Part shown: positions 897 to 61,940 of the stretch, in pieces
Layout: the number at the start of each line of letters is the position of its first letter
Numbering within the stretch: position 1 is the first letter of the stretch
From: Nymphaea colorata
Taxonomy: Eukaryota; Streptophyta; Magnoliopsida; Nymphaeales; Nymphaeaceae
Direction of reading: 5' to 3'
DNA length: 64,000 nucleotides
NCBI RefSeq assembly: GCF_008831285.2
Contig: NC_045143.1
Span: 7,077,503-7,141,502 of the forward strand
The notes under the pieces: model-generated
What the model was told of the DNA's origin: nothing
Seen by the model: the letters and a program-made list of their open reading frames with translations, nothing else
Databases searched by the model: none
Program-made: the position numbers and the translations under genes

Positions 897-1146
897 TCAC
901 CTTGCTGATGGGTATATAAATGAATCATTGTCCGACTGAGAATGGCCTTCATAAGACAGGGAGCCAGAAACTCCTTCTCTTGCAGAACCTCGATCTTCAA
1001 TCTCCATGGCTGCCTTCAATCCATTCACAACTTCAGTCATGGTAGGCCTTCCAATTGCTTTCTCTTCACCGCATGTCAGAGCTATCTCTACAACTTTCCA
1101 TATAGAGTTAACGTCGTATCGGCCTTAGAGCCTAGGGTCGACAATG
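897..1146 (-). pseudogene. Receptor kinase copy 1, severed 3' part of last exon
   Basis: This is the C-terminal 250 bp of exon 13 of malectin-LRR kinase copy 1, ending in TGA at 897-899. It encodes the kinase C-lobe end (Arg-Arg-Pro-Thr-Met region) and the C-terminal tail, matching exon 13 of the intact copy at 40298-40712. A retroelement separates it from the rest of the exon, which resumes at 22099. Adding 897-1146 to 22099-22263 gives 415 bp, exactly the intact exon length, so the insertion is clean. A premature TAA at 1125-1127 replaces a Gln codon. Confidence 0.9.
1142..1146. repeat. Target-site duplication CAATG, left copy
   Basis: CAATG lies immediately left of the Copia 1 LTR and is repeated at 22094-22098 immediately right of the other LTR. 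Five-base duplications are made by Copia integrase. Confidence 0.9.
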
Positions 1147-1553
1147 TGTTGGAGCTTTGCGAGGAATCTAGATAGCGGACAAACGAAAATGCAGAAATTG
1201 AACAAACATTCATGGATCCATGTGTTTCATATAGGGCGGAAGAAGAACCTGTAGAGGCGACCGCCGACTGAATGTCGGCGGCTGTGGAAAGAACGGCTAC
1301 AGTCCCCATAGAGTCGTTCCCCAACGGCATTGGCGGCGGCGGTGGCGGCGGTGGCAATGAGTTTCTCTCCTCAGCCATAGCAGCCCAGTGATGGGGACAG
1401 GCAATTCACGTATGGCTAAGGAGACCGATTACCCAGACGGTAAAAACTGAATGTGTCTCACACCATCACAAGACACGAGTATTTATACTTAGGGTCCGAA
1501 ACGGATATGAACCCGTATCGACGCAGGACTATCCAGATGAGGAAATTTCAACA
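1147..1553 (-). repeat. Copia 1 LTR, 3' copy in element orientation
   Basis: 407 bp, starting TGTTGGAGC and ending TTTCAACA on the plus strand. It matches 21699-22093. The 12-bp length difference equals four extra proline codons in an LTR-borne reading frame. Confidence 0.92.
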
Positions 1554-1567
1554 ATCTCCCACTAGTC
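1554..1567 (-). other. Copia 1 polypurine tract
   Basis: On the minus strand the sequence next to the 3' LTR reads ACTAGTGGGAGAT, a typical plant Copia plus-strand priming tract directly before TGTTG. Confidence 0.75.
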
Positions 1568-1755
1568 CAAGTTGATATCAAGGGTAAACAAAATGAATGG
1601 ATTAGCCTTTAAAATCCATTCTAAGGTCCCACCTTTGTTGTCTTACAAAACTTCTCAACAAACAAATGAGAATACAAAACAAATAGACAACAAACTTAAT
1701 GAGAATCAATAAACTGTATGTGATCACATTCATAAATATTTGCATAATAGTGTGT

Positions 1756-1965
1756 TTACATTGAACTACACAAACTCATCCTCTTAACATGTTCAAAGAA
1801 CATACCAGATGCTAGCGCTTTAGTAAGAGGATCTGCAACCATATCTATAGTCCCAATGTGTTGAATACACACTAGTTGATTCTCTGTCCTTTCCTTAACA
1901 ACAAAATACTTAAGTTCCATATGCTTACAAGAAGTAGTACTTTTGTTGTTGTTGGAAAAAGACAC
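1756..1965 (-). pseudogene. Copia 1 RNase H, C-terminal part
   Basis: The 69-aa frame contains the closing region of Copia RNase H (HIGTIDMVADPLTKAL), which in this family precedes the 3' LTR. The preceding part (about 1990-2350) is still recognisable at DNA level, but frameshifts and stops prevent a continuous reading frame. Only the end of the domain is open here. Confidence 0.85.
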
Positions 1966-2351
1966 TTTAGCTTCATTATCACAGTGAACCTTAAGTGGTC
2001 TATCAAATTGATTCCACTATCTTAAGTTGTGAAATGAAGTTCTTTATCCAAATTGTCTGCGATGTAGTCTCATATAATGCAATGAATTATGCTTCCATGG
2101 TATGAGCAGCAGTCACAGTCTGTTTTTTGCTTCCCCATGAGATGACACCTCCTGATATAAGGAAAACAAAACCAGTAGTAGACTTTCTACTATCGATACA
2201 TCCTCCAAGATCGGTGTCAGAATAGCCAATCACTTCTAAATGGTCCACCTTGCGATATGGCCTTCCAATGTGTCATGCCTGGATTAGACTGAAATCTACC
2301 AAGCATGCCAACAGCAAAGGAAATGTCAAGCCGAGTGCAAATCTGCGCATA

Positions 2352-2732
2352 CTACAAGCTGCCAACCGCTGATGCATATGGAATGTTGATCATTTGTGCC
2401 TTTTCAAATTCGTCATTTGGACAATCATTTAGGCTCAATTTATCACCTTTAGCTATGGGTGCCGAAATAGGAGAACAATTATCCATCACATATCTCTTAA
2501 GAACTTTATTGATGTATGTTAATTGGGAGAGACTTAAAACACATTTAGATCTGTCTCGACGAATCTCAATGCCGAGGACAAATAAAGTCTCACCCATGTC
2601 CTTCATCTCAAAATGAGACGCGAGAAAATGTTTGGTCTCTGTTAGAAATTGAAGATCATTTGAAGCAAGCAAAATGTCATCCACATATAAAGTCAAAATT
2701 ATGAACTTACTCCCACATGTCTTAAGATACAC
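2352..2732 (-). pseudogene. Copia 1 reverse transcriptase, C-terminal part
   Basis: Carries the catalytic YVDD motif (LYVDDILLAS), then FEMKDMGE and the LGIEI block typical of plant Copia reverse transcriptase. A break at about 2733-2810 separates it from the N-terminal half. The same protein would copy element RNA to DNA in cytoplasmic particles. Confidence 0.9.
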
Positions 2733-2810
2733 ACATCGATCAATGATATTTTCTATAAACCCAAAAGTCGTAATGACTTTGAAAAACTTAATGTACCATT
2801 GACGTGAGGC

Positions 2811-3323
2811 CTATTTAAGTCCATAAATCTTTTTATTGAGCTTGCAAACCAAATGATCTTTACCACTCTCAGAAAACCCTTGAGGTTGATCCATATATAC
2901 CTCTTCATCCAAATCACCATTCAATAAAGCCGTTTTCACATCCATCTGATGTAGTTCTAAGTCAAAATGAGCTACAAGTGCAAGGACAATCCTCATTGAC
3001 TCTTTAGCAGAGACAGGTGAATATGTCTCATTATAGTCAATGCCCTCCATTTGTATGAATCCTTTAGCAACTAATATTGCCTTGTATCTCTCTATGTTGC
3101 CTTTAGAGTCCCTCTTGGTCTTATAGACCCATTTACACTCTATGGGTTTTACTCCTTCTGACAACGACACAAGGCTCCATGTCTGGTTTTTAGCCATAGA
3201 GTCAAGCTCTTCTTTCATGGCATTAATCAAGAACCTGTATTGTTTGCTTTCAATGGCTTCATTGAATGTGAAAGGATCATCATCAACATCTATGAAATCA
3301 CTAGGCTCTTGTAGGTATACCAC
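2811..3323 (-). pseudogene. Copia 1 reverse transcriptase, N-terminal part
   Basis: Encodes the N-terminal fingers and palm: CKWVYKTK, LVAKGF, YNETYSPV, and HQMDVKTALLNGDL with the first catalytic Asp. It ends in KIYGLK, where the domain would normally continue. It is in frame order with the C-terminal half at 2352-2732, but frame and stop changes interrupt the join. Confidence 0.9.
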
Positions 3324-3430
3324 ATAATCTGATGATATGGCATAGCTCCTGGCTCTTGCAGATCTACGAACAGGTAATTGATCATTTTCAATTTGTATGT
3401 CTACATCCTGCTCGTGTTAATCAGTATGAT

Positions 3431-4189
3431 CTACATGTAATTCATCTGGATTTGATGCATTGCTTGTATGTTTGCATTCATGTCATCACGAGAGACAACA
3501 TAATCATAAACATTTACATTCTCTTTATCAGGTCTACATTTAGTATCCTGTATTTCCTCAAAAGTGAGGTTTTGTAATGCATCTAACCCAAATGAGCCAT
3601 CTTCTAGGAACTTAGCGTTATCTGTTTCCACAATATGTGGTGTATGAGATGGACAATAAAACCTATAGCCTTTCGATCTTTCTGGATAACCAATAAAGAA
3701 ACCACTGGTTGTTTTAGGATCAAAGGCTTTTATGTAGGAGTTATACAATTTAGCTTCAGCAGGACATCCCCATATGTGCATATAAAAAAGAGAAGGTTTC
3801 CTACCTGTCCATAACTCATAAGGAGTTGTAGGAACAACTTTAGTAGGAACCCTATTTTGGATATGCACTGCTGTCCTGAGAGCTTCACCCCATAATGTTA
3901 GAGGGAGAGTAGAGTAATTTAACATAGCTCGAACCATTTCTTTAAGCGTACGATTTCTTCTTTCAGCAACACTATTTTGGTAGGCACTGCCTGGCATAGT
4001 GTATTGAGGCACAATGCCTTTTTCCTTTATAAATCGCGCTAATGGTCCCTCCCTTTGTCCCATCTCAGTGAACCTACCATAATATTCACCACCTCTATCT
4101 GATCTGACTATCTTGATAACCTCACCAGTTTGTTTCTTTACTTCTTTCTTGTAGTCCTTGAAAACTTGACACACATCGAATTTTTTCAA
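3431..4189 (-). pseudogene. Copia 1 integrase, C-terminal two thirds
   Basis: Contains the second and third catalytic acidic residues of the DDE integrase: Asp in [10 protein letters not shown] and Glu in [11 protein letters not shown]. The Copia-specific region after the core follows ([25 protein letters not shown]). The first Asp is in the overlapping frame at 4122-5657, so a frameshift in about 4120-4190 splits the domain. Confidence 0.9.
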
Positions 4190-5657
4190 AGATTAAGTAG
4201 ATATACAAATACCGAGAATAGTCATCTATAAATGTGACAAAATACTTTTCGCATGTGTAACAAGGAGGGAAAGGTCCACAAACATCTGTGTGAACAATTC
4301 CTAATCTTTCAGTACATCGCTCGGCACGTTCTTTATATATGTTAGTTTGCTTTGCCTTTATGCAATCTACACATATGTCGTTATCTGTAAAATCAAGAGA
4401 TCGTAAGATCCCTTCATTTATGAGTCTCCTTATTCTCTTTTCAAAGATATGACCCAAACGGTGGTGCCATAGCATGTATGAATCATCCTTTATAGTACTA
4501 CACTTATTGCCAATTATATTATGACTAGAAACCAACGATTCAGGAGATTGGATCTTCATATTCAACTTGTATAAACCATCACACAAAATAGCAGAACCAA
4601 TTTCAACAAGATCTTTATAAATGAACATCTTTGAATTCTCAAACTTTAAACAAAAATCAAATTTGTCCAGTCTTGATACAGAAATTAAGTTTCTACTATA
4701 TGATGGAACAAAGAAAACATCATGAAGATCCAAAACAAAGCCAGTGTCAAGCCTAATCTGACATTCTCCTACAGCCTTCACATGTGAGCGCATTTTGTTT
4801 CCTGAGAAAATGCTCCTCTCATGTAGTGTTGGTTCTCTTTTGCTCAGAAAGTCCTGTAAAGAATTGGCAATATGCACAGTAGCACCAGAGTCAATCCACC
4901 AGCTATTAATAGGAACATGTAACATATTACTTTCAAGTGAAACAAATGACATGTTACATTTCTTCTCTAACCAATTCTTATACTTGATGCAGTCTGACTT
5001 CTTATGCCCTTTTTTCTTGCAAAAGAAACACTTTATAGGAGCTAAGTTAGTCTGCGCAGTTAGAGAAGCAGGTTGACTTGATGACTTCTTCTTGGCACTC
5101 CTTTTCATTAAACTTTTCTTTATGCCAATTTTATCAGCCCCAGAGTGAGAAACTATATGTGCACTTTGCAACTTCTCACCCTTCATTCTTTCCTCCTCTT
5201 CAACACACTTAGACATTAATTCATTGAATGTCCATTCAGTATTATGTGTGTTATAACTGATCTTAAAAAGAGTGTATTCAGCTGGTAAAGAGGTCAAAGT
5301 AAAGAATACCAAGAATGATTCAGAAATAATCAACTTCATGTCATTCAATTGAGAAGCAATGTTCCTCATTTCTAACATATGCTGGCGAATGTTACCCCCT
5401 CCTTGATATTTCATAGATATTAACTTTGACATTAGAGTACTTGCTCTGGCTTTATGAGAGCTGACAAACTGAGTCTCAACTGCATCCAAGAACTCTCTTA
5501 CTGATCTACAAGGTGGGATAGCACCACGTATGTTTTTAGCGACCCTTGATTGTAAAAGCAACAAGCTTAGTCGGCTAGAATGCTCCCACTTGTCAAAATA
5601 CACTATTTCATTATGTGTACTTTCTGATATAAGAGGTGGTGGCTCAGGTCGCCTCAA
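4122..5657 (-). pseudogene. Copia 1 gag, protease and integrase N-terminus
   Basis: A 511-aa frame holding, in order: the capsid-like gag region (about residues 1-170), a CCHC zinc knuckle (CFFCKKKGHKKSDC), the aspartic protease active site (WWIDSGATVH), the GAG-pre-integrase HHCC finger (WHHRLGH to CVDCIKAK) and the first integrase Asp (VHTDVCGPF). The true gag N-terminus continues further upstream (to about 5800), but a 20-bp tandem duplication at 5639-5678 throws it out of frame. The protease triad is intact by eye. Confidence 0.9.
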
Positions 5658-5678
5658 AGTGGCTCAGGTCACCTCAAA
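5639..5678. repeat. 20-bp tandem duplication in Copia 1 gag
   Basis: GTGGCTCAGGTCGCCTCAAA is followed by a second copy with one change. Twenty is not a multiple of three, so gag is frameshifted here. Upstream the frame still encodes a Copia gag N-terminal signature (YAEWKENVVFTLGYMNLDMAL). Confidence 0.85.
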
Positions 5679-7292
5679 GCCATATCCAGATTCATATACC
5701 CTAATGTAAACACAACATTTTCTTTCCATTCAGCATAATTGGAATCATCAAGTAAAGGAATAAAATTTGAGCCATTAAAATAAATAGAACCAGGCACTGC
5801 AGATGACAAAAGATATCTATAAGTTGACATGCATTATATAAGACAAACCATATGGAACAATAAACCAAATAAAAGGCTCTTTATGTCTACTATTTCCAAG
5901 ACAAATACCTGGGGTCATTAGGATACTACTTTGGTAATATACCTAATACACACATGTATTCCATCTTAACTTTATCTAGTAAAACTAGGAAATGTAAATC
6001 CAAACTATAGTTAAGCATAACACATTTGAGTGTAAGATGACAGAACTATTTAAGGATCTATTTTTCTATTTTACTCTACTTATTCTCCTGAACATAACAC
6101 ACTACCTTTGTGTAATTATGTTACTTCAAATGAGAATAAATACAACATGAAACACTAATGTGCCTTTAAATCATGTGTAGTCACTTTGGTGAGGTATGAC
6201 ATGATTTAACTAATCATAGGCTCTTTACATTAGCGTTATCGTACAAACTTTATGACCATACAATAAAACTAACTTTAGCATAATCATAAACAAAACATGA
6301 TACAAGAATATGTTATAATAACACATATAAAATGAAATACACGAATCACATGAATCATTTCTGCATAATCAACTTAATGCTATCTAAATTGTTCATTAAA
6401 GCTCCATAAAACTTAATGAATCGGTCTCGTATCGATCTAAAATGATTGAACCAATTCATTAAACACCATAAATGGGCATACAACCACATATACCAGCTCC
6501 TTCTAGCTTAGAACCGGTCCCGTATCAGTCCTAAATGGACCGAACCGGTGGAAAACTAGATGAACCGGTCCCGAAAGGGAAGGAACCGGTTGAAGAATGG
6601 CTAAAACTGGGTTAAAAAACAATTGTATCGCTCAGAAAAATGCTCCAAATCGTTTCAGAATGGGAAGAACTGGTTTTATAATCTGAGAACCAGTCCAGAA
6701 CCGGTCTGAAAACCGGATGAACTGGTTCTCTGAGACCCTGACTCGGTGCAATTAAAACTGAATCGGTTTTATTTAACAAATCAGGCGGTATGGATCCGGG
6801 TCGACAGGACCCGACCCGATCCAAAATGAAGTCGGGCGGGCGGAAGTCGAGCGGCAATGGAAATGAATTTTTTTTTTTTTAAATTTTATGGATCCGAGTC
6901 GGGTCACGACAGACCCGACCCGGGTCCGACACGCCTTCCCGCTTCCGCCCGACCGACTCCCACTCGACCTAGGAACGGTTTCAGGCAACGAAGAAACCGC
7001 CGCTCGCCTGCAACGGCAGGGAACGGTGGATTCGCCTCCGGCGGCCCTCCGGGGACTATGGGTGGGAGCCGACATATCTCACGGTGCCGCCCGGCTACGG
7101 CGAAGCCGCCCGCGGGCCTCTGACCGGCCGACGCCCTCCCTACCGTTCCCTGTCCTCGTGCCCTAATATTTCAGATTTGAGCATAACCACTGGCAGCGGG
7201 ATGCCAGCGACGGGCGACGTTGGGTGGACGCTGTCGGGGCCATCCGACGACGGCGAACCCGCCGATGGCTTCCCTTCCTTCAGTCCCCTATT
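5679..7292 (-). other. Copia 1 gag N-terminus relic and long leader
   Basis: Positions 5679-5830 encode the displaced gag N-terminus on the minus strand. From 5830 to 6770 the DNA is AT-rich with no open gene, including repeated AACCGGT-type words at 6420-6760. Positions 6780-7290 are GC-rich, with GGGTCGGGT/ACCCGACCC words and several short unconvincing frames. The Gypsy element begins at 7293. Together with 21433-21698 this forms an unusually long leader of about 1.7-1.9 kb. Confidence 0.55.
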
Positions 7293-8954
7293 TGCATCCC
7301 AAAATATTCGTTGGTTTTGGAGTGCTCTAGAAAAATGAGGTTTTTATTTTCAAAGAGGAAAGAAAGGGACTCGCCCGTCGGTACGAGGATCGACTGTTCC
7401 CGGCGCCTTTACCGGGGGTAATCAACCCAAGGGCTATGTTTATAATTGATGCATTTCGTTTTAACTTAAACATCTTTTTGATTCTATATGCGGTGTAGAA
7501 AATATTGAAAGTTTGAAGTTTCAAACTTTTGAAAAGGTTCTTGATGAGTTGCTTGAAAATGTGAAATGTTTTGAGGAAAACGTGGAACTAGTAAATATCA
7601 TTTGAGAAGCTTGTGAAATCATTTTGAAATTACTTTAGTATTCTCTTAAGACTTTAAGTAGGTTTGAAATTTTGCTCTAATTCGATTACCACCTAACTAG
7701 AGCTCTATCCCTTCTTGCTTAAGTTCTTTTGGAGAGGTGCTTGTGTTCATAAGTGAAATAAAGTGGGTGAGAATGCATGGATGCATTTACCCTATATGAT
7801 TGAAAGAATGTAAAACATTCCTATCACAACATTCATCTAAAGTCATTCCTACCACAACATACATATAAGATTTTTGTTTTTGTAAATATCATATATATGA
7901 AGGAAAAGTTTTTTAAAATGGATTGGGATTGTAGACCGTCAAGCATGATTCCAACATTGAGTCAGTACTTGGTTTGTGGTCTTAATGAAGTTGGTAAATA
8001 GAAAGTTCGTGAGAGGAGAATGTTAAGAAGAATACAAGAGATAAAAGCACTCTTATGAAAAGAAAGAGAGAGATAGATAAAGACATGCATACATGTGTAC
8101 ATACCATAACATATACACATATATAAAAGCTTAAGAGAAAAAGATGTATTGATTTGAATAAAAAGAAAGATTTTAGAGGAAAAGAAAAATATCATACGTA
8201 TATATGGGTATGAGAAATTTTATAAGAGAATATATTTCTCTTGAAAAAAAGAATAAATATTTGAAAGAGAGGAAATGGAGCACATGTACATACGTATTCA
8301 TGCACTTATGAAAATTTATAAAATGGAAAGTGAGAGCATAGAGAGAGAAAGATGGGGGGTCATCATGTTGGCATTGATGTATATAACATGTATATACATT
8401 CATACCTTCACAAGATTAGAAATCAATGAACAACTTAAAATTACCAACTTCAAGTTTAATGTGGGCCAGAGGGGAGCTTGGACTCATGCAAAAGTTTAAG
8501 CTAAGTCCCTAAGGCCATGTTAGAAGGTTCCTTTTGAAAATGTTTTGGAAAATAGGATTTATATAAGCATAGAATGTTATTATTTAGTTTGTTGTACGAG
8601 ATATATTTCTTCCACCGTTGGGTATGGAAGAAAACAAGCAACATAACGAGACACTCGTTAGGGTTCCTAATGGGATGATTAAGAATGAAATTCGTGCAAA
8701 ATGACATGCAAATGCATATTAACATGTACATTTTCGTGAGGGTATATCCCGGGTTGGACAAGTCCCAACCTCAAAAATTAATATAAAATAAAGAGTCCCT
8801 AAACCACACTCTCATTCTCACCATACATTCACATATAAGTAGCAAGCCAAGCAACTATACATGGATAATATATAGACAACATTCAAGGAAGAAAAGAGAG
8901 AAAAAGGATGATAGAAAGTGCAAGGTTCAATTAGAAGGGACGACATGATGTAAC

Positions 8955-9900
8955 TATGAAATGAAATGTCACCTCATATTCTCATGTTTTCGGTGCACTT
9001 GAGTATAGCCTCTTGACTCTAAAATAGAGATTGAGAGCTATCTCCTTTGGCCATGGGGAAATAATAAATAGAGGAAAATAAGAAAAAGCAAAAGAACAAC
9101 AAGAATGTATTTATGAAAAGAAAGAACATGATTAAAATGAAAGATCAACTCATCTTTCCATGCTCTCGGTGCACTTGAGTATAGCCTTTTGTCTCTAAAA
9201 AGAGATTGAGTGTTACCTCTTTTAGCCATGGGGAGATGAAGGTGAGGAGAAAATGTAGAAATAAAAACAATACTATATTTAATAAAAGAGAGCATGATTC
9301 AATCATGAAATGAAAGATCATCTCATCTTTTCATGCTCTCAATGCACTTGAGCATAGCCTCTTGTCTCTAAAAAGAGATTGAGTGCTATCTCCTTTGACC
9401 ATGAGAAGATGAAGATGAGAAAAGAAAATAACAAGAACAAGTCTATATTGAAGAAAGGAAATAATAATAACAACGAGAATATATTCATGAAGGAAAAGAA
9501 CAACAACAACAAGAATACTTCAAAATAACATGATTTAATCGTAAAATAAAATATCATCTCATCTTCTCATGCTCCCGGTGCACTTGAGCATAGCCTCTTG
9601 TCTCTAAAAAGAGGTTGAGTGCTATCTCCTTTGGCCATGGGAAGATGAAGATGACAAGAGAAAATGAAAACAATCAACAAGACTATGTTCAAGAAAAAGG
9701 AATAGCATAATAATAAGAACATGTTAATGAAAAATAACAACAATAAGAATACTTGAAAGAAGCATGATTTAATCATAAAATAAAATATCATCTCATCTTC
9801 TCATGCTCCCGGTGCACTTAAGCATAGCCTCTTGTCTCTAAAAAGAGGTTGAGTCTATCTCCTTTGGCTATGAGGAGATGAAGATAAGAAAAAAAAAGAA
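8955..9900. repeat. Five-unit hairpin repeat array inside the Gypsy 1 LTR
   Basis: A core of about 80-90 bp (from CATGCTCCCGGTGCACTTGA to TTTGGCCATGG) occurs five times, separated by variable A-rich spacers. Each core holds a small inverted repeat, CCTCTT then AAGAGG or a variant, at about 9009, 9185, 9358, 9593 and 9829. The array is absent from the other LTR because of a deletion. Confidence 0.85.
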
Positions 9901-10369
9901 ATGAGAGGGATGATGATTACATACCTCTAATGAGAGATGACTTAAGGAAGATAAACACCTTCACTTGAAAATCCCTTTTGAGTGAAGCTCCAAGATGATG
10001 CCTCCAAGAGGGTTGTAGCTTGCTCCAAGTTGGAAAGGGAAATGGAGAGAGGAAGAGGGAGAGAGAGAGAGAGCTCAAGGGAAACTCTAAGTCTTCAAGT
10101 GAGAATACACTAGAGTTTTTTCCAAGGACCAATCTTGCCCAAGAGGGAGGATATGAGGGGTATTTATAGAGGATTTTGAAGCCAAAACCCAAAATTTGAA
10201 TTTTTGACCTAAAAAGACTAAAATCACCTTCCAAAAGGAGATTGTTTTGTCAAAAAAAAGGGCAAATGGGTCTTGTCCACCAAAAAAGACTAAAGTTACC
10301 CTCTAAAAGGAGGTTTTTTGGTCAAAAGGAATGGCAAATTAGTCTTAAATGATTGATTTGGATCTGAAC

Positions 10370-10565
10370 TTGGGTTTTGGATTTGAAAGTAATATTTTGG
10401 ATTTAATTTGGATCTGAAAGTAGTATTTTGGATTTCATTTGGATCTAAAAGTTGTATTTTGGATTTAATTTGGATCTAAGAGTAGTATTTTGGATTTAAT
10501 TTGGATCTGAAAGTTGTATTTTGGATTTAATTTGGATCTAAGAGTTGTATTTTGGATTTGAATCT
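10370..10565. repeat. 31-bp tandem repeats near the LTR end
   Basis: About six units built on TTGGATCTAAGAGTAGTATT plus TTGGATTTAAT. Four or five units are also kept at 21212-21356 in the partner LTR, where the large deletion joins into this array. Confidence 0.85.
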
Positions 10566-10635
10566 TGTGCCTAAATTTGAATTTCGCACTTGAATAAAAC
10601 ATCATAGTCTTTTAGAAAAATTTGGGGTGATTACA

Positions 10636-10650
10636 GATGCCCCTCTTTGT
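10636..10650 (-). other. Gypsy 1 polypurine tract
   Basis: On the minus strand CAAAGAGGGGCATC lies directly before the LTR start TGTAATCACC, as expected for plus-strand priming. Confidence 0.8.
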
Positions 10651-11137
10651 TAATAAGCCGGTGTTAACCGTGCTTAGTGACAAAGATAAACGCCACAAAT
10701 TTTTCAAACAAAACATTTTCATAGAGATGTTTCGGTCTTTACCCCTTACCTGAATGAGTTGTTTGAGCTTAAATTGAAGGTTTAACCCCTTACCTGCATA
10801 GGTTTGCCAATTTCAAATTCAGGTTTAACCCCCCTGAATGGGTTGCCTTGACTTGCATCACAAGTTGAACCCTTTAACTGCGTGGGTTGCTTTGGCTTGT
10901 AGCACAGTTTTAACCCCTTTGCCTGCATGGGTTGCTTTCGCTAGCATTGCAGGTTGCCCTCATATTGCAGGTTTAACCCTTTACCTGCACGGGTTGCTCT
11001 CAAGCCCTGAGCGATAATAATAATAAAAAAATGTCCCAGTGTAATTGTCATGTTTTACGACTGGGAAGAATCAAGATTGAATAGTCGATGTGGAAACACA
11101 AATGTTTGACATTGATTGGAAAATGAATACAAGAGAA
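10651..11137. repeat. GGTTTAACCCCTTTACCTGC repeats between integrase and LTR
   Basis: From about 10730 to 11000 there are seven or eight degenerate copies of a 30-60-bp unit with the words TTTAACCCCTTTACCTGC and GGGTTGCTTT. No gene. This is the 3' untranslated part of the Gypsy element on the minus strand. Confidence 0.75.
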
Positions 11138-12615: not shown

Positions 12616-12633
12616 CTTTTCATCTTTGACTTG

Positions 12634-14612: not shown

Positions 14613-14758
14613 AAGATTACTTGCATTGCATATAAAAAAAGTTCTTAGTTCATAGAATGGGTCCCCTCATGAGACCAGACAAAAAGATGTTTAAAAATTA
14701 CAAAATTCATGGGAGGATTTGAAATAAAAGTGAATACTATTAGCCCCCAAGATCTTCT

Positions 14759-23492: not shown

Positions 23493-23527
<35 letters not shown>

Positions 23528-40748: not shown

Positions 40749-40788
<40 letters not shown>

Positions 40789-51809: not shown

Positions 51810-52570
51810 GTAGTCGTTTTCCAAAAAAAAAAATGCTTCAACAACAATAAAACAGGTCAAACCAATTAGTATGATAGTCGGACATGCACAAAACTGCTAA
51901 AAATCAGAATCACAAGGCTACGAACATAAGATCGAGTTTCCAACACCAATATTGCAGCAATATACGCCAAGATATATGCTCAAAAATGCAGAAAATAAGA
52001 GAGGCCAATTTACGTGGAAAAACCCTCAATAATAGGGTAAAAAACCACAGGCAAGAGAGACTTTTTATATATAAAAAAAGGGAGCCAAATACACTAGCAG
52101 CAATATCAAGAAAAACAGTAAACTCAAGAAAACAATAAAACTCATTTATACGAATAAAAGAAAGAGCCCCAAAGATTCAAGAAATAAATCACCCAATGAA
52201 GACTCGCTTCATTTTCTCTTTCTTCTTTGTCTTTCATCTCTCTTCTTGGCGTGCCGATCAACTCATGCACCTTCCTGCCATTTCTCTTTTTTCTTTGTCT
52301 TTCCTCTCTCTTCTTGGTGTGCCCATCAACCCACACACCTTGCTGCAATTTCTCTTTCTTCTTTTTCCTGTCTTCCTCTTCCCCTTCTCTTCTTGCTGTG
52401 TGCAGCCACAAGAGGGAAACCCTCTTTTCTTTTCCCAAAAGAAAAACACGAGAGAGACCTGAGAGAGATTGGGGGCACCATCGTGTACGCTCCCTTTTCT
52501 TCCGCCTGTCACTTAAGTGACGGGTCGGATCGGGTCGGGTCCTCTCTTGAAGCTGGACCCGACCCAACAC
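51810..52570. mobile_element. 761-bp insertion in exon 10 of kinase copy 3, type uncertain
   Basis: Precisely interrupts exon 10 between AACAAAAG and TTCACC (coding strand). On the minus strand it opens TGTTGGGTCGGG, and in the plus sense it contains TTTACGTGGAAAAACCCTC and a CT-rich tandem duplicate. It resembles a solo LTR or a small non-autonomous element. No clear 5-base target duplication, and no coding domain. Confidence 0.55.
52208..52380. repeat. CT-rich tandem duplication inside the insertion
   Basis: A unit of roughly 75 bp containing TTTCTTCTTTGTCTTTC, CTCTCTTCTTGG and GTGCCGATCAACTCA is repeated twice with changes, plus a partial third. Overlapping frames on both strands are by-products of this low-complexity DNA. 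Confidence 0.7.
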
Positions 52571-52987
52571 TTTTGTTAATAACTTGATCTACAAGAATTG
52601 AAACAAAGTTGACTAGGCACGCACCAAATTTGTTTGCATCAAATATTTGAATTCTAGAAGCAAACCTCCGCTGCAAATTCTTTGCTCCTTTGCAGAGTTG
52701 CTCTGTCAATGTCTTGACTGCCACTTCACTGCCATCAATTAGCTTTCAATAAAACACATCTGCAGATCCTCCTCTACGGATCCTCCTTTCGAAGTTATTG
52801 GTGATCCTCACTATGTCATTATAGGTGAATAAACTGCTACTTTCTAATGCCAATAGTGTGTGTGTGTTGGAGTTATCTGGCATGGGAAAAGATGATTAAT
52901 AGTCATATATATATATATATATATATATATCCCGGAAGATTAAGTCATAAACTCATACTGCATCTCAAGGTTGAACCTTGGTATGAG

Positions 52988-53215
52988 ATTGGCTCGACAA
53001 TGGCAAGTCACACTTCAGCACAAATTGACCGTTTGCTGGCAAATTAGGGCTGTTGGCCCCAGACTGCGCATCCTTCCTACCTACCAAAAAGTGGAAACAT
53101 TTGACCGGGTGCTGTAGAGTGAATTAATATCAACTCACTCAAATCATGGTAAAACACTTCTGCATTTTAAAATATCTTAATTTTTTTTATAAAAAAAGGA
53201 AAGGAGGAAGAAAGA
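52988..53215 (-). repeat. Duplicate of the GDSL gene's upstream region
   Basis: Matches 56545-57010 in order: CTCGACAATGGCAAGTCACAC-type start, the GCTGTTGGCCCCAGACTG block, AGTGAATTAATATC, ATCATGGTAAAA and AGGAAAGGAGGAAGAA. No GDSL coding sequence follows on its left; kinase copy 3 exon 8 is there instead. Confidence 0.8.
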
Positions 53216-54676
53216 TTGCGATATTTTTATTTCGCACGTTATTTTGTATTTCTTTATTTTCAAGTATATACCACTTGAAATACATTCTTTTGTGTTTTTT
53301 TTTCTAGACGGAGGTTCGAATGTCATAAATTACACGAAACAGGTCCCAAGTTAAATTTATTAGAAATGCAAAGTTTACCATCAACAATGGTGAAGTTGAC
53401 CCATTTATTTGCAATTTAATGACGTCTAAAATCAACAAAGTTTCTGCCATTCTTACTGCAATCAAGCCTATCCAAAATCCACGTCCGTTTTTCTGGCAAA
53501 AGTAATTTTTAGATGTTACTTGTCGCAATGCATTAGAAAGGTGTTGGACCTCTTGAATGCACGCAGTACGACACCTTTCTAAAATCTAATGCATTTTTGG
53601 TGTTATGTTATGGTTTCAGATGTTAAAAATGCGGTGGAAGATGTGCACAGATTTATGAAATGTCTCGATATCATCATTTCGTTATCAGAATTAATTGGCT
53701 TGACCAAATGTCAAAAGAAATGAAAAAGGAATTAAATTAAAAAAAGAAAAAGTAAATTCAAATGTCGCTACTTGATGCCCCAAAAGTGGGGCTGGTTATA
53801 GGCCCATGTGCAGGACATACAGAGTGGGTCAGTGGCCCAGTATGAGTAGGACAGAGATGTCTCGTGTATGTTGCACTCCACTGCACCTAACCACATTTCC
53901 AGAGGCACCTGTGTCACTGCCAGGTGAGGCAGCTTTGCCTGCACAGTGCGACGGCATGGTGACAAGAGAGATCCACTTTAATTTTGAGGTCTACTATGGT
54001 ATTCTTAAAGTCAACCTAAGTGTATTTTTCTTTTGTGGTGGACTGGATCTCTGGTCCTTGTAGACGTGTAGCTGTCGAAAATATTGGCTTTTGCAGGTTA
54101 TGCATTGTTTATCATCGTTTTAACAATTTTTACAGAATTATTTCCACATCAAAGGCCTCTCGTTCTGATACCATACAAATATGTGTGAAAGCAGTGAAAA
54201 GGTAGAATTTCATGCTTCTTCCTTTATATAGTACAAGGATTCTGAGATAATTTTTCCGATTTGTGACAAAATATTTCACACCATCTATTCCATAACTGCC
54301 AACACCGAATCTCCAGCAAATCAAATCATGTAAGAATGCTGCGTAATGTTTTTCAATGTACGCATTTTTACCTAAACTCGCCAGATAGAGATCAGCCATG
54401 AGGATCTCAATGATCACCCGGCTGCCAAATATATCCAAGGACAATTTTGATCTTCCTTTCAATACAAGGGTTGTCCTCAGCATTATTCGTCGAAAGAAAA
54501 AAGGCAATTCTGATACAAACAAGTCTGAAAGAAAAAGGAGGGTAAAAGATGAAACGCCAATCGTTCCAACCCACATGAGTTAATTTGATAGAAGAGAAGA
54601 ACCGAAAAACAACAAGTAAATCACGTCCATATCAATTTTTTCCCGTGCTAGTTGAAATTGGCTTCGTTTCTAGATC
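53216..54676. other. Interval between kinase copy 3 and GDSL
   Basis: No recognised gene. A 148-aa minus-strand frame (54130-54576) has no motif I know. TTCTGATACCATAC at 54157 resembles the complement of a Copia primer-binding site but has no LTR beside it. The GDSL 3' untranslated region should end somewhere in 54300-54676. Confidence 0.5.
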
Positions 54677-56439
54677 TTAATGGTCACGGGTATGAAATGA
54701 TGGCGGCCCTGTAAGCATCAGTGAGATATTAAGGTTGGCTAGCACTTCAACATTGAAGGGATAGGCTTCAGTTTGGAGCTCTGACGAATATGCTTTTGTC
54801 GACAAGTGCATGTAAAGCTTTTCTGTGAGGTGTAACCCATCGTAATTGGAGTAGATGCTCCTATCTGGACATGGTCCATCACCTTCAACACATAATGGCC
54901 CTGTTGCATTGGCCCCGGCAAAGAAGCAGCAACTTTCATTGGTCACCTTTAATCCTAAGATAACAGGAACATTTACTTGGTTAGAGATTTGTTTATGTAT
55001 ATGTAATAGCAATCGTGCATGATTTACCATCTTACGTACTTTTGGTAGTGTCCAAGTTAAATATATTCACATAATGTACTAGACTGCATTGTTTAATGTC
55101 CATGCACATGCATGGTACAACATAATTTAAATTGATCATAAATACATTATATTTATATTGTGTTCTGGAACATATTAAATGGACAAATGATTGCATACCA
55201 TAGGTAGTTGGATCATCGATTATCACATTGATGATTCCCGACATGTTGATGTAGACAAAAGAAAAACCAGGCAAGTCTTCACTTAGATTTTCTAGAGCGG
55301 GCCTGAGTGCATTGTTGAACAAAGTGGATCCCTCATTTAGTAAATCCACACATGATCCATTGTTGCGTTGTTTAAAATAAGGATCACAACCAGTTTGCAG
55401 GAGATTAAATACCACGAATTTTCGTGCCCCAAAGTCATATGCTTTCTGTAGAATAGGAGAAAATCATAATATAAGGAGATCATATTGGCCAAAGAAATTA
55501 GCAATCTCTTAGTTAATTAAGGTCAAGGTGTGTGTGTGGTGGGAACTGTGCCAAATACGTGTTCTCATCAAGTAACTAGGGATTTCATGAACTAAAGCAG
55601 CCCACTTCAAGCATCTTTTGAGAGAGAGTAGCATTACCATGAGGTGGTGGGTGTAATTTCGAATGAGCAATTCTGTTAGGCTCTGCAACTCACACTCTAC
55701 AGCCACGCCTGATGATGTGGTGCAGCTTGCCATGTAATCGCCTCCACCAATCAGGAAGAAGAATATACTCTGAGAGAGATAGGAAGAGAGTGCAAAGCTC
55801 CCATTCAATAGAGATTTCAGATCGGGTAGTGTTGTTTCCCCAAAGTTCGCAATTTGGTGGCTCAAAGATATGATATGTTGCTGCAAAAAAATTTCACTTT
55901 TTGTCAAAGATAAGATATATTATCTTAGTTTCATGTCCTTTTCTTCCTCACTAGCATCCCATCTTGATTATACGTGTCAAGGAATATATCAGTTAGCATG
56001 GTACTTCTTTGTAAAAGCTTAAGTTGGCAAAGACTCATCTCCTTGGAAAAGAGAATTTGCTAGAAACAAATATCGATCTGCTTACACTTTGGCGAGTTGA
56101 ATCAAGGATGCCCGCACCAGCTGAGGCATAGTTTACTCCGGCAAGAATGGAGCTTCCTGTGGTTTGAGGGTCGTAGAAAGCCGGCAGGAAATGAGGCAGC
56201 CCTAACAACTGCCCCAGTATGTCTGCCGAGGTTCTTCCATTGGTGCACCTGCCTGTAGCACCCAATGGGAAATCTACCCCATACGGAAAGTAGTTGCATT
56301 GGGCGTCTGTATCCAAAAAGTCGTTGTTTCCACAATCAACGATTGAATCCCCGAATACGAACATTGCTTTGACATTGCTTCCAGTAGTCACTGTGGAGAA
56401 TCTGGAGAGAATGAGCAAAATCGAGAAGAGAATGAACAT
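54677..56439 (-). CDS. GDSL-type esterase/lipase, secreted
   Basis: Four exons: 56086-56439, 55638-55880, 55199-55445, 54677-54954; 1122 bp, 373 aa, all phases consistent and no stop. Signal peptide about 1-20 (MFILFSILLILSRFSTVTT). Block I FVFGDSIVDCGNN with nucleophile Ser32; block II GVNYASAGAGILD; block III FLIGGGDY near 160-167, where the usual motif is GxND, so the oxyanion-hole Asn is Gly165; block V YDGLHLTEK with Asp320 and His323. Length and four conserved blocks fit plant extracellular SGNH hydrolases acting on ester bonds of lipids, cutin or wall polymers. The substrate cannot be told. The missing Asn may weaken activity. The gene sits between a broken kinase and AT-rich DNA. Confidence 0.9.
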
Positions 56440-56956
56440 GCTGGTTGGAAGGCAGGTGAAGGCAAATAGGGGGTGGCAGTTCCTTGGGTTGTCTCTGCAA
56501 CCAGCTTTCCCTCTTAAAGGGTTTACAAAACCTTCCTCTCAACAAACATTCACTTAGCTCGTGACTGGCAAGTGACACTTCCGCCAAACTGACTGTTTGA
56601 TTGCAAATTGAGGCTGCTGGCCCCAGGCTGTGTGTCCTTTTTGAGAGGAAGTTACGTGTGCGCCGTATGCCCCGGCACATCGCGCAATAATGGAGGGAAG
56701 GGCATCTTCGTAATTTATTAAAATGGCTTTTATCTATTTTTTATAATTTTTTAAATTTTCAATTCTTTTTATAAAAAGTTTTCTTTTCAATATGAACTAG
56801 GGGCACTGTAGTCAATAACCTTATACTGGCGCACAAAAAAAAATACATCAGGTTTGATGCATGTAACTAGGTTAGGACCTTGCTAAAAACGTCTACTCAC
56901 TAAAAAAGTGAATTAATATCCACACACTTCAATATCATGGTAAAAACAGTTCAAGA

Positions 56957-56997
<41 letters not shown>

Positions 56998-57015
56998 AAA
57001 GGAGGAAGAATCATG
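56440..57015 (-). promoter_or_regulatory. GDSL upstream region
   Basis: Contains the block duplicated at 52988-53215. A (TA)n run of about 34 bp occupies 56958-56993. No start-site element was called with confidence. Confidence 0.4.
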
Positions 57016-59150
57016 AGAACGTTGCCCTTTATTCACTAGCATCTTTTGTTTTATGAATTCTTGAATTTTTTTTAGCATCCAAATTACTTTTAAAAAATCA
57101 GATATAATAAGCAATTTGACATTCGATTAAGAAAATCGGATAAAAATAACAACTCATCGGATATGGATTCAGATTCAGTTTTAAATAAATATCTAATCTG
57201 TTAACAAGTATATTTGAATATGAACTATAACCAGATATCTGAATCCAAACTAGAACTTGAGATCCAAATCCGAACCATGAGTTGATATGAATCGGAATTG
57301 TAACTTGACATCCGAATCCGAACCACGAGAGTTGATATCCGAATCCTATAGTCAAATATCTGATCCGAACCGTGAGAGCTTGAGTTACCATATACATCAT
57401 TTAACTTAAAATGTTTAAAACTATATCATATAAAAATAATTAATTAATTAATATTGTATTTAATTAAACACTTTTTTGTAATCAAGCAAACCATTAAATT
57501 AGCATCAACTAAATAGGATATCTTAAATAATTTATTTATTTACTTGAAAATAATAAAGAAAACTCCAATCAAGAAATTCAAAAAAATGAACAATTTAAAA
57601 AATATGAAAAAGATACTTTTAGAGCTATAAATTTTTTAATGGGCCATTATGTCAAATTAGTTCCGAGAATATCTATATTATATATTTAAAAAATGATAGT
57701 TTCAAAACAAAAATATTGGTATTGATGTATGAGAGACCCTGAGGAATTGAAATGAGACAGCTGTCGAATATTGCTTGTGCCTTAAAAACACCTTACAACA
57801 AAGCATTAGCAATAATTATCGCATAGCCATGGTTAATAGTGACTCTAGCAAAGGCTTATGATGTTTTTTGTAGTTATCTAGCAGCAAACCAATTTCAAAT
57901 TTTTGACTCATAAAGTTAGAATTTGAGAGAGACTAAAGAAGTTACTTGTGAACAAAACTACCAAACAATGTACTTTAATTAATATTATTATGTTTGTGCA
58001 ATTTGACCTTGCAAATGTGATATGTTAATCAATGTTTCTTATGAAAATTAAAAAAAAAATGATAGCAAAAAATATACTTCACTGTGCATAATCTCAAATA
58101 AATATATTTCATATGAAAAAATGGCTCAACTCATAAAAAAAGTTTTATTTATCAAATTATAAATTACTTATTTAATTAATCAAGTACATTATTTTGTGAA
58201 ATCATAAAATCTATCCAAAAGTCATAGTTATTTGATATATAACACATAATTTACAAATTTGAAAACAAAAACCTTTTAACTAATATGAAAACAACAAATT
58301 GTTTGGTTTAATAAATTTTTGATATATCATTTGATTAAATATACAATTTTATGTAAAAAGACACGTATTGCAATAAAGATAAGAAGACTAATAAATTATG
58401 TGATATATAATTGAACACTCTTTTTACGAATGTAACACAAATTATTTCAATTAACTCAATGAAATAAAAAATCTTAAATAATGTTTTTCTTAAAATGAAA
58501 AATAATATGGGTCACCTGATTTAATAATTTCTAATAAGAGATCATCATGAAGTAATAGTTTACTCAAATAAAATATGTTATTATTAAAAAGTAAATCATT
58601 CAATGTTTAATATGCACAATTAGTGTGAAAAAAAGTATAAAAATCAAATATACTAGTTGTTCAATATACTAGTTGTTTTCAACAAGTATTTAAAAAAGTG
58701 AATTTATCAAAAAATATCTATGAAAATTAATTTAATACATCCTTAAACAACTTGAAGACATAGAAGTCAAACATGATAAATTATGAACATGAAGAACTTA
58801 TTGAGAAAATTGATAAGCTAATAGTTAAAGCATCTTAACCAACCCTGTGAAAATTAAGTAATAAATATTTGTTCATAAAAAGAAAATATAAAAATATAAA
58901 AGTTCAAAATATAAAACAATTTATAGTCAAATTCAGTAAAAAAAAAAAAAAACTCGACTCATTGAGATGCACACACATATTTATAATATAAATATTTATT
59001 TTTTCGTACAAATTTGAAATGGGCCCAGGCGCACCACCTAATTTGAAATGTATTTTGATTATAAAAAGTAAAATTTGAAAAATATTAAGAAATCAAGCAC
59101 ATATTAAAAAAATTAAAAAATAGAGATAAACAAGCTTCCTGCCCAATGCT
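57016..59150. other. Very AT-rich gene-free DNA
   Basis: No gene. 57160-57380 has many ATCCGAATCCGAACC-type words on one strand and degenerate complements (CGGATATGGATTC), resembling the self-similar internal sequence of small hAT-like elements. 57400-59100 is extremely AT-rich with poly-A/T runs and nothing recognisable. Confidence 0.6.
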
Positions 59151-59204
59151 CTTTGCTTCTTAAAAAAATTCCTTCTTTTTGGTAGTTTGATATGTTATTG
59201 AAGA

Positions 59205-59410
59205 TCATTGGTTGTCTGTCTATAAGGGTGGCCAATGAGTCGAGCCACTTGAGCTCGACTCATTAAAGCTCGGCCCGTAAACAAGTTTGAGCTGTTGAAT
59301 GAGTGAAGCTCGAGTTCATGAGTCGACTAGTTCAAATAATCGAGTTGAGTTTGAGTTCACTAAACTCGAAGTGTTAAAGCTTGACTAAGCTTGGAAATGG
59401 GTAGCTATTT
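59205..59410. mobile_element. Possible small hAT-like relic with GAGCTCGA words
   Basis: AAGGGTGGCCAATGAGTCGAGCC opens a run of GAGCTCGACTC/GCTCGAGTTC words that are largely self-complementary. An end like AGGGTGGC with such an interior is typical of non-autonomous plant hAT elements, but I did not find a matching right end. Confidence 0.35.
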
Positions 59411-59457
59411 TTACCTGACTCCTTTTTTAATTAAAAAAAAACCAGTTCCCAAACCCT

Positions 59458-59678
59458 TTGTGGCAGGCGGGAAACTTTAACTTTTCCCTTTTAAGCTTTT
59501 TTTGTTTAGAAAGTTGTTGCCCCCAAATGCAACCGGAACTCCTAAGATCATTACTTCGCAGCCGGCAGCTCCCCTTCAGCCTTCAAGGTTTCAGGAGGCT
59601 ATTGGCGATTCAAGGTTTCAGGTGGCTACTGGCGAGGCGATGTCTGCAGAGAAGGCAAGCTTCCTGCCTACATGTAGT

Positions 59679-59724
<46 letters not shown>

Positions 59725-59991
59725 TGCATTTTTATTTTTTCTAACATATGTCGGTGGGGTGTCAGGTGGGCGTGGCTGGAGTCGCTGCGGAGGAAGAAGG
59801 GATCAGAGGAGGCAAGAAGAGGAAGAAGCTCGGCACTCGTTTCCTTGCAGTATGATCCTCTCCATCGGATTCTCCTCTATTTTTTTTTTTGTCCAGACTT
59901 GAAGTTGAGATCCCAAACTTTCCCCTTTCTTAATTTCAAAATGGGTCTTATTTCTATCTCTTGTTTGTTGTTTTTCTTTTCTCAAATTTGA
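59458..59991 (+). other. Open frame across a CT microsatellite, probably not a gene
   Basis: A 177-aa frame runs through a long TC run (59673-59719), giving Leu-Ser repeats. A 27-bp tandem repeat (TTCAAGGTTTCAGGAGGCTA and following) at about 59582-59640 precedes it, and an Arg/Lys-rich segment follows. It could hold a fragment of a host exon but has no recognised domain. Confidence 0.25.
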
Positions 59992-60814
59992 TGATCAAAA
60001 AACTAGAGTGTCATGTCATGCATGAGTTGTTTGCAAAGTTAACGGAATGGTGATCTCTTTTCATTTTCTGAACAAAATCTTGCTGGTCAACTTTTGGATT
60101 AGTGCCCATTAGCCCCAATGTTCTGGCTCACTGCCCATGGCTATCATGCTTCCTTGAAACTAGCCCCTTATGGTCAACCAGCCTCAACCATCCTAGAGTT
60201 TGTAGGCGATTTACCTTGCTTAAGTTGGAGAAAGATAAAGAAAAACACCCCAGATCAGCCACATTAAGCAGCGCTCTTTCTTCCCTCATGACAACCCTCT
60301 CTCTTTCTTTGTCTTTTTCTCTCCCTTGGCAGAATTAATGGAGGGTTCACACACTTAGAAGTAGTGAGCGTTCACTAGTCAAAAGAGAACTCTGATACAG
60401 AAAAATGGTTTGAGGAGATCCAGAGTTTACCAGGTTGAGGGATTGATCAGTTCAACAAATAAAGCTACTTTTAGGCTAGTAGAGCATGGCAGCTTGTGCT
60501 TTTGGGTTTGTCCCAAATGAAGCAAAACTATGGAAAGATTGTTGCAAGAGAACATAAGTCTAATTATGCCTTGTATCCATGTAGAACTAAGAAGCATGCT
60601 AGCGGTCTGACACAATGTCTATGTCAGGATTAATTACAACAAATTTTTTGGTCTCCAATTAGTAGAATATTGATCTTCATGTTCATCACCAGGATTTGAA
60701 TTGAGGTTTCCAATCCCCATGGGTCAGACATCACACAAGAGGAAGATGTCTGGATTCCTTTATGTATGCTTTGTGTACAGATTCTTTGCTTGATCAGCAT
60801 ATACCAACTAATGC
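59992..60814. other. Gene-free stretch before Copia 3
   Basis: No domain seen on either strand. The short frames at 60102-60338 and 60427-60821 are not supported. The junction with the Copia 3 RNase H at about 60815 is abrupt. Confidence 0.5.
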
Positions 60815-61179
60815 GATGCAAAGTGGTGCGATTTCATGGAGCAGTAAGAAACAGCCGAGAATTTCACTATCTACAACAGAAGCAGAGTATAAAGCAGCAT
60901 CTCAAGTAGCACAAGAACGTGTGTGGTTGGTGCGACTGCTGAAATACATTAAACAAGATATGGATTATTCTGTGAGACAATCAAAGTGTGATTAGACTTG
61001 CAGAAAATCATGACTTCCATGCTCGAACGAAACATATAGAGGTGGAGCATCATTTTATAAAAAAGAAGGTATTCAAAGTTGAGATTCAGTTGCAGCCAAT
61101 CACTTCAGAAGATCAAGTCACTTACCAAAGGTCTGCCAGTGCAAACATGCACCAAGTTTTGAAGAATGTTAAGTCATGA
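60815..61179 (+). pseudogene. Copia 3 RNase H remnant
   Basis: Two overlapping frames: GAISWSSKKQPRISLSTTEAEYKAA, then NHDFHARTKHIEVEHHFIKKKV, both hallmark Copia RNase H segments. A frameshift at about 60985-60995 divides them. The catalytic N-terminal part is absent. Confidence 0.88.
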
Positions 61180-61206
61180 ATAAAGAGTAAGTAATGAGGG
61201 GGAGAT

Positions 61207-61822
61207 TGTAAAGAGTCATCACCGACTCTTTTGAATGAGTCGAGAAGACTCAAGAGGCTTTGAGCCTCTCTTTTTTAAGTCGGTGCTTGTGTAATGATTA
61301 AAGAAAAAAATTGTGGAAATCGGTGGAAGCATCCACCACCGACTTCTTCTCCTTTATAAATAGGGATGTTGGGCATATTGAGTGGTGTGTGCAAGAAGAG
61401 TGTGTAAGAAGCGAGTTTTGTTGAGTCTCCTTTGAGCTAGAGTTTGTATGCTTACTTTGTGAGTTGGTGTGTGAGAGTTTCAAGTGTGTGCTCAAGTGCA
61501 AGAGTATCAGGTGCTTTGATGTTAGCTCACTAAGTGAGCTTGTTGAGGTGAGTTCTTGTACCTCACTTTTATATGTTTTATTTTGACAAACAATAGAAGT
61601 GCATTGTTTGAAGTGTAGTTGGTGCATATTTTACGTTGTTGCTTGGTTAAGTTCATTTTGTGAACTTTGTTGGTGTTGTTATTAAGTTCCTATTAAGTAT
61701 ACTTTGTAAAGTTTATTATTGAGAATTATTTTGGACGTCGAGACTCTGCCAGTTTTTTTTCTCCAGATAAATTCGAGATTGGATCTAAGTTACATTTAGG
61801 GGCCACATTCGTTTTTTCAACA
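61207..61822 (+). repeat. Copia 3 LTR
   Basis: 616 bp, TGTAAAGAGTC to TTTTTCAACA. Includes a hairpin-prone segment (GACTCAAGAGGCTTTGAGCCTC) and a TATA-like CTTTATAAATAGGG at 61351. No second copy in the window. Confidence 0.85.
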
Positions 61823-61867
61823 GCTTCTCTATAAAAACCTCCTCTTAAGGGTGGGGAATGCACTTAC

Positions 61868-61940
61868 CTTCTTGTGCTCCTCCTACTCAAAGATAGAAGG
61901 AAGCACAAAGTAGCAGAAAGACGCGGTCCCATGTACTCAT
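61868..61940 (-). pseudogene. Malectin-LRR receptor kinase copy 3, orphan exon 1
   Basis: 73 bp, the same length as exon 1 of copies 1 and 2, with conserved ATG (61938-61940) and GTAAG donor. It encodes a signal peptide beginning MSTWDRVFLLLC. A TGA replaces the Arg codon CGA near its end. About 8.9 kb of unrelated DNA separates it from exon 8. Confidence 0.9.

Follow-up and report, generated by a model that had tools for sequence, protein, structure and literature searches.

Structure of the receptor kinase array

We analysed a 64-kb window of the Nymphaea colorata genome (contig NC_045143.1, positions 7,077,503 to 7,141,502), in which three tandem copies of a malectin-like leucine-rich repeat (LRR) receptor kinase gene are arranged head-to-tail, all on the minus strand (Table 1). 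They span the region from 897, the last base of the copy 1 stop codon, to 61940, the A of the copy 3 ATG. The locus is very probably an array of genes with the architecture of LRR receptor-like kinase (LRR-RLK) subfamily I that evolves by birth and death, and in which a tract of copy 2-like sequence was transferred into copy 1 by conversion.

A previous sequence-only reading of this stretch had proposed three copies with a common 13-exon plan and identical lengths for most exons. Exons were indeed located in all three copies: 13 of 13 in copy 1 and 13 in the model of copy 2, whereas in copy 3 only E1 and E9-E13 remain of this plan and E2-E8 have been lost. Aligned exon lengths of copies 1 and 2 are equal in 10 of 13 cases (E7 of copy 1 is longer by 2 nt and E8 shorter by 3 nt), or in 11 of 13 if E13 is counted to the stop codon; the 12 extra nt of copy 1 E13 in the global alignment are located after that codon, where BLAST gives an ungapped match. 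Cut at roughly equivalent points, the repeat units measure 10,671 and 10,272 bp, close to the 10.2-10.6 kb proposed earlier, although copy 1 fits only when its retrotransposons are removed. Divergence between copies amounts to about 3-16% depending on the region, and the similarity of E2 and E3 between copies 1 and 2 is far beyond chance (BLAST E-value 0.0).

The gene model of copy 2 was built manually from translations in three frames and then checked by script. Its exons measure 73, 535, 458, 139, 72, 72, 81, 167, 212, 127, 69, 190 and 415 nt (E1 to E13), all 12 introns are of the GT-AG type with consistent phases, and 869 codons run from the ATG to a TGA with no internal stop. As the earlier reading had it, this is the sole open reading frame among the three copies. 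Pfam detected a Malectin_like domain (PF12819, residues 29-342, E 7.5e-88), followed by few LRRs (LRR_8, residues 401-457, E 5e-07, 29.8 bits against a cutoff of 27), and a kinase domain (PF07714, residues 561-829, E 4.5e-48), for which the best matches in PDB were the SymRK and FERONIA kinases. A putative signal peptide (E1) and a putative transmembrane segment (E8) were seen by eye in the translation. The kinase lysine (VAVK), HRD and DFG motifs are present, and the Gly-rich loop has the sequence GKGGSA, with alanine in place of its third glycine; GGSA is found at the same site also in copies 1 and 3. By analogy with the family, the product would be a plasma-membrane receptor with a malectin-like ectodomain binding an extracellular ligand and a kinase signalling inward.

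Copy 1 contains three in-register stops (codons 73, 133 and 794 in copy 2 numbering), in line with the stops claimed for it before, together with an insertion of 2 nt that shifts the frame in E7, and GC instead of GT at the donor following E10. Its gross lesions, which had gone unmentioned, are two Copia insertions, each with a pair of long terminal repeats (LTRs), a target-site duplication and pol domains. The first, 20.9 kb long with a nested Gypsy element, splits E13; its RVT_2 matches lie at 2811-3416 and 2352-2810 (Pfam), and the Gypsy element carries RVT_1, RNase H and integrase domains. The second (RVT_2, rve and gag_pre-integrs domains) separates copy 1 from its own upstream region, as it sits 4 bp before the ATG; read on the minus strand, its target-site duplication is CGTAA and takes in the A of the ATG. 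The LTRs of the first Copia have diverged by 0.037 +- 0.009 (Kimura two-parameter) and those of the second by 0.064 +- 0.013, values that do not differ significantly (p = 0.12). Within the nested Gypsy, some 1.7 kb of DNA with internal repeats (8723-10416) apparently interrupts the left LTR, 10417-10648 corresponds to 21216-21443 adjoining the right LTR, and a 384-aa open reading frame (ORF) at 17853-19007 (minus strand) contains a plant mobile domain (PF10536, 1e-20). At 29391-29906 (minus strand), the ORF of the second Copia encodes repeated QSGNEPTG-like units.

In copy 3, E1, E9, E11, E12 and E13 are whole or nearly whole and E10 is split, while of E2-E8 only about the last 20 bp of E8 are left. 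Deletions of 1 nt in E9 and of 3 and 52 nt in E13 were found, as well as three in-register stops. The suggestion that this copy was broken by rearrangement agrees with the absence of E2-E8 and the presence of other DNA in their place, a foreign block of about 8.8 kb. At its left junction (~52983), the kinase sequence gives way to duplicated 5' flanking DNA of a GDSL lipase gene (52989-53075 against 56554-56639, 79%), and the lipase gene itself comes next; Lipase_GDSL was matched by two pieces of it, 56035-56538 at 1.1e-05 and 55032-55463 at 3.1e-05 (Pfam). On the right, the block ends in a Copia-like 3' end whose LTR, about 614 bp long (61208-61821, by eye), lies directly against intron 1. In the 64-kb window this LTR had no partner (best other match 41 bp) and the 5' end of the element was not found; Pfam gave no match on 60705-60995 and 60976-61179, where Copia RNase H was read by eye only. 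The single ORF scanned in the E10 insert, a lesion likewise absent from the earlier reading, matched no Pfam family.

Parts of the GDSL 5' flank thus occur twice (52989-53212 and 56554-57010), the duplicate lying directly upstream of the copy 3 kinase exons in the same orientation; it may be a remnant of GDSL duplication or a promoter-kinase fusion. A mobile element that brought the GDSL gene into copy 3 was considered and rejected: the listed 25 of 76 inverted pairs included no terminal inverted repeat at the ends of the block. Upstream of copy 3, the segment 62485-63740 has no match of at least 150 bp in the other spacers, and a GC-rich ORF (63097-63852) matched no Pfam family. A match between 63740-63980 and the spacer at 37198-37433 suggests that the array or its spacer continues past 64000.

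Copies 1 and 3 keep introns and flanks and carry disabling lesions, as is characteristic of duplicated (unprocessed) pseudogenes, and would make no full-length receptor. They had been thought to be dying by different routes; the lesions do differ, but mobile DNA is involved in both.

Table 1. Positions of the gene copies, mobile elements and putative conversion tract in the window
Feature	Position	Strand	Basis or remarks
Copy 2, complete gene	40298..45812	-	All junctions GT-AG, 869 aa; Pfam Malectin_like, LRR, kinase
Copy 2, E1-E7	45812-45740, 45296-44762, 43935-43478, 43398-43260, 43177-43106, 43037-42966, 42441-42361	-	
Copy 2, E8-E13	42274-42108, 42006-41795, 41717-41591, 41442-41374, 41290-41101, 40712-40298	-	
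Copy 1, E1-E12 and first part of E13	22099..27246	-	Alignment to copy 2
Copy 1, remainder of E13 with stop codon, past Copia insertion	897..1146	-	Alignment to copy 2
First Copia, in copy 1 E13	1147..22093	-	LTRs 1147-1553 and 21699-22093; target-site duplication CAATG
Gypsy nested in first Copia	7288..21443 (limits approximate)	-	LTR match 7288-8722 / 19783-21216
Second Copia, upstream of copy 1 ATG	27251..35057	-	Target-site duplication TTACG
Putative conversion tract in copy 1 (5' part of E3, intron 2, E2, intron 1, E1)	25206..27250		Change point, three-way test
Remaining putative tract in copy 1 (upstream region, past second Copia)	35063..35668 (right end approximate)		
Matching tract in copy 2	43755..46404 (right end approximate)		
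Copy 3, E9-E13	50487..52876	-	Alignment to copy 2; E10 interrupted, E11 acceptor AG lost
Copy 3, E1 with in-frame stop	61868..61940	-	Alignment to copy 2
Insert of ~0.76 kb in copy 3 E10	51810..52568		LTR-like features by eye only
Foreign block replacing copy 3 E2-E8	52989..61821		GDSL 5' flank duplicate, GDSL lipase gene, AT-rich DNA, truncated Copia 3' end (by eye)

The mosaic structure of copy 1

When copies 1 and 2 were compared in 200-bp bins, identity ranged from 0.80 to 0.92 and then jumped to 0.945-0.985 at E3. The low-divergence tract of about 2.65 kb, on which the earlier reading was also silent, comprises the upstream region, E1, E2 and some 180 nt of E3, and the two copies differ there by about 3.4%, as against 12.6% in the 3' half (15% in noncoding DNA). 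Within the gene, the change point is best placed at 43755 in copy 2 and 25206 in copy 1, with 414/3280 differences on one side and 67/2041 on the other. Twice its log-likelihood ratio (2lnLR) is 152.6, a value reached in none of 2000 permutations (maximum 23.4). Noncoding differences follow the same pattern, with only 44/1252 in the 5' half and 22/559 in the upstream region as against 219/1454 in the 3' half. Past ~46404, differences climb from 3.4% to 9.3% (0/1000 permutations); in well-aligned stretches of the spacer they number 86/1347 (46900-48250) and 45/547 (48800-49350). The tract is bounded on both sides, its outer limit being less sharp than the one in E3. Beside it, differences are steepest at 46400-46900 (versus ~35.67-36.8 kb), where 81/461, or about 18%, were counted; this patch may be the tract edge or a local fast-evolving repeat.

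To find which copy had been overwritten, all three were compared in noncoding DNA, columns gapped in any copy being dropped; two alignments (the spacer at 63.7 kb and the 3' flank) were excluded because they extend into unrelated DNA. In the 3' half (n = 784), 108 differences separate copies 1 and 2, 127 copies 1 and 3, and 68 copies 2 and 3, while the corresponding numbers at the 5' end (n = 528) are 26, 47 and 46. Expressed as changes of each copy's own, copy 1 has 79/784 in the 3' half and 12/528 at the 5' end (p = 7e-9), copy 2 has 20 and 11 (p = 0.71), and copy 3 has 39 and 32 (p = 0.46). The distance between copies 2 and 3 is the same 8.7% in both parts (p = 1). Since only the changes of copy 1 drop at the 5' end, it is copy 1 that most likely holds the foreign patch, and its 3' half most likely represents the most divergent lineage of the three. 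From this, we infer that copy 1 received the tract by gene conversion, the donor being copy 2 or a close relative. The good preservation of E1-E3 in copy 1 is most likely due to such overwriting rather than to slow decay.

Several observations weigh against this reading or narrow it. If 46390-46790 is left out, the outer limit shifts to 46113 (2lnLR 27.2, permutation maximum 17.9), and when the upstream region and spacer are taken alone with low-identity stretches excluded, 39 of 1000 permutations reach the observed value. The spacer past 46900 differs by only 6.4-8.2%, which calls for either repeated exchange or variable rates. Identity between copies 2 and 3 also varies within the 3' half, two segments giving 0.925 and 0.893. 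The direction was derived from the three copies of the window, and since the array apparently continues past the window, the donor may be another copy.

The same distances bear on the alternatives. It is rather unlikely that copy 3 consists of two remnants, namely E9-E13 of one copy and E1 of a further, otherwise lost one. Its pieces do lie about 9 kb apart, with foreign DNA and a Copia end between them, but both are equally distant from copy 2 and their own branches are similar in length (39/784 and 32/528), as expected of one gene.

Less probable still is that copy 2 is the recombinant, produced by unequal crossover in E3 from a copy 1-like 5' half and a copy 3-like 3' half with duplication of the spacer. 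This would explain why the nearest relative switches, copies 2 and 3 being closest at the 3' end and copies 1 and 2 at the 5' end, and it would also yield the similar spacers upstream of copies 1 and 2 and the unrelated DNA downstream of copy 1. However, it predicts an equal distance between copies 1 and 3 throughout, which is contradicted by 127/784 in the 3' half versus 47/528 at the 5' end (p = 1e-4). The discrepancy might be smaller if the upstream region were under stronger constraint, but the constant distance between copies 2 and 3 led us to reject the crossover as the main account.

An assembly artefact, with haplotypes collapsed or misjoined, appears very unlikely: tandem repeats and nested retrotransposons are hard to assemble, but both Copia insertions have clean 5-bp target-site duplications, the copies differ to the extent given above, and copies 1 and 3 bear different point lesions. 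Hardly tenable is the view that there was no exchange and that the 3' half of copy 1 merely mutated faster after its death; although copy 1 has the two largest insertions, one of them splitting this very half, a roughly fourfold rate jump at one point within an exon would be required, and the half is still constrained (own changes 55/967 in exons against 79/784 in noncoding DNA, p = 8e-4), so that much of its divergence accrued while the gene was working.

Selection on the copies and the order of events

We then asked how far the coding sequences were constrained, using ratios of nonsynonymous to synonymous rates (dN/dS). Between copies 1 and 2, dN/dS was 0.39 from E1 to the tract part of E3 (p = 0.035 against 1), 0.41 in E4-E8 and 0.52 in E9-E13; for the rest of E3 through E13 together it was 0.59 (p = 0.0014). 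In E9-E13, values of 0.89 (p = 0.63) for copies 2 and 3 and 0.62 (p = 0.05) for copies 1 and 3 were obtained. These ratios, and own changes that are fewer in its exons than in its noncoding DNA, indicate that copy 1 functioned for much of its history.

For copy 2, the outcome was different from what its open frame might suggest. In E1 and E9-E13, own nonsynonymous and synonymous changes (N:S) number 26.5:16.5 in copy 1, 16:4 in copy 2 and 23:6 in copy 3, the proportion in copy 2 not differing significantly from that in copy 1 (p = 0.25) or copy 3 (p = 1). Thus, no amino-acid constraint is visible in E9-E13 of copy 2 since the split from copy 3. The sequence-only reading had called copy 2 the one survivor; this stands as far as the reading frame is concerned, but its own changes give no sign of protein-level constraint and survival is unproven.

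One explanation, which we hold to be possible though somewhat unlikely, is that copy 2 is no longer needed and its frame is open merely for want of time. Four or fewer synonymous changes among 20 have a probability of p = 0.007 at a true ratio of 0.3 and p = 0.09 at 0.5, and exons of copy 2 did not change more slowly than noncoding DNA (32/967 versus 20/784). On the other hand, a neutrally evolving frame with its length and branch would be expected to have acquired about 2.9 nonsense changes, the chance of none being 0.05, and with frame-shifting indels included the chance of staying open falls to about 0.001 by rough extrapolation. Moreover, only these 20 changes were counted, and E2-E8, absent from copy 3, lie outside the test.

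A quite different and improbable interpretation takes the array as a store of diversity for the ligand-binding domain, with copies 1 and 2 under diversifying selection before copy 1 died, and with the lack of constraint in copy 2 reflecting ongoing adaptive change. In the second half of the malectin domain (E3 past the tract), 35.2 N and 6.8 S changes separate copies 1 and 2, a ratio of 1.6 that does not differ significantly from 1 (p = 0.42). Nonsynonymous differences are denser there than in E4-E13 (35/213 versus 96/1187 sites, p = 3e-4), synonymous ones are not (p = 0.44), and a conversion boundary within E3 would shuffle precisely this half of the domain.

Methylation-driven decay of the dead copies was also considered and is not claimed, as the counts are very small and the contexts show only modest differences in rate. 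Five of the six in-register stops in copies 1 and 3 are C-to-T relative to copy 2 and four of the six are in CG or CHG context; two of them are in E2, absent from copy 3, so their direction is not polarised. Rates of change in CG, CHG and CHH contexts were 7/54, 11/154 and 24/653 in copy 1, 3/42, 2/128 and 7/646 in copy 2, and 5/52, 8/142 and 18/656 in copy 3.

If the tract in copy 1 arose by conversion, the following order of events can be proposed. An older lineage, preserved in the 3' half of copy 1, and the lineage of copies 2 and 3 would have been present first. Copies 2 and 3 would then have split (8.7% in noncoding DNA), after which copy 2-like sequence would have overwritten the 5' end of copy 1 (3.5-3.9% noncoding differences today), and Copia elements would subsequently have broken copy 1. 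Copy 3 would have lost its middle at some point. Conversion probably preceded the second Copia at the start codon, since an element-free donor should have eliminated an insertion already present. Against this order, the LTRs of that element differ slightly more (22/363) than the noncoding DNA of the tract (66/1811, p = 0.04), which at equal rates would place the conversion after the insertion. Faster decay of LTRs would account for this difference.

Comparison with known receptor kinase clusters

The architecture of copy 2 is that of LRR-RLK subfamily I (FRK1, IOS1, MEE39 and the SIF genes), of which it is a putative member. GhSIF1 is described as consisting of a signal peptide, malectin-like domain, LRR motif, transmembrane segment and kinase, and subfamily I genes as having a malectin-like domain and multiple short exons (PMC6128003). 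Copy 2, with 13 exons of 69-535 nt, shares the latter trait. Its 12 introns do not match the exact numbers of 10, 11 or 15 given for Amborella members of the subfamily (PMC5179525).

The closest parallel comes from Arabidopsis thaliana, where malectin-like receptor kinases form the OAK / At5g59670 cluster (Smith, Bomblies and Weigel 2011, PMC3136440). A source that describes tandem and proximal duplication among Arabidopsis receptor kinases lists At5g59670 with the malectin-containing LRR kinases (PMC12382012). In passages of the OAK paper, the cluster is likewise a highly variable tandem array of genes with malectin-like, LRR and kinase domains, shaped by duplications and deletions, and two alleles show unusually high divergence in the second malectin-like domain (PMC3136440). 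This resembles the excess of nonsynonymous change that separates copies 1 and 2 in the second half of their malectin domain. The same passages describe a tract that extends into kinase-coding sequence and is identical between copies (PMC3136440), whereas the tract described here starts further upstream, ends in E3 and has since diverged by about 3.4%. Furthermore, OAK was expressed and tested (PMC3136440), while the present array is known from its sequence alone, and in those passages transposon insertions are mentioned for nucleotide-binding LRR (NB-LRR) clusters only (PMC3136440). Judging by paper titles and term counts, clusters of NLR genes also combine duplicated resistance loci, pseudogenes and LTR retrotransposons; these are NLR genes, whereas the array here consists of receptor kinases. 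A literature search conducted without the species name returned no paper recognisable as this locus, which says little.

The same kind of history has been published for the Arabidopsis OAK cluster, and the array is a good new example rather than a new kind, an ordinary but well-preserved case of receptor gene cluster turnover. A single window records tandem duplication, conversion and retrotransposon damage, and the order of these events is partly readable. Two warnings follow for such arrays: an intact copy need not be constrained, and the high identity of a pseudogene to its neighbour may stem from conversion and mislead dating. Finally, the likeness to OAK suggests that exchange breakpoints in these genes may recur.

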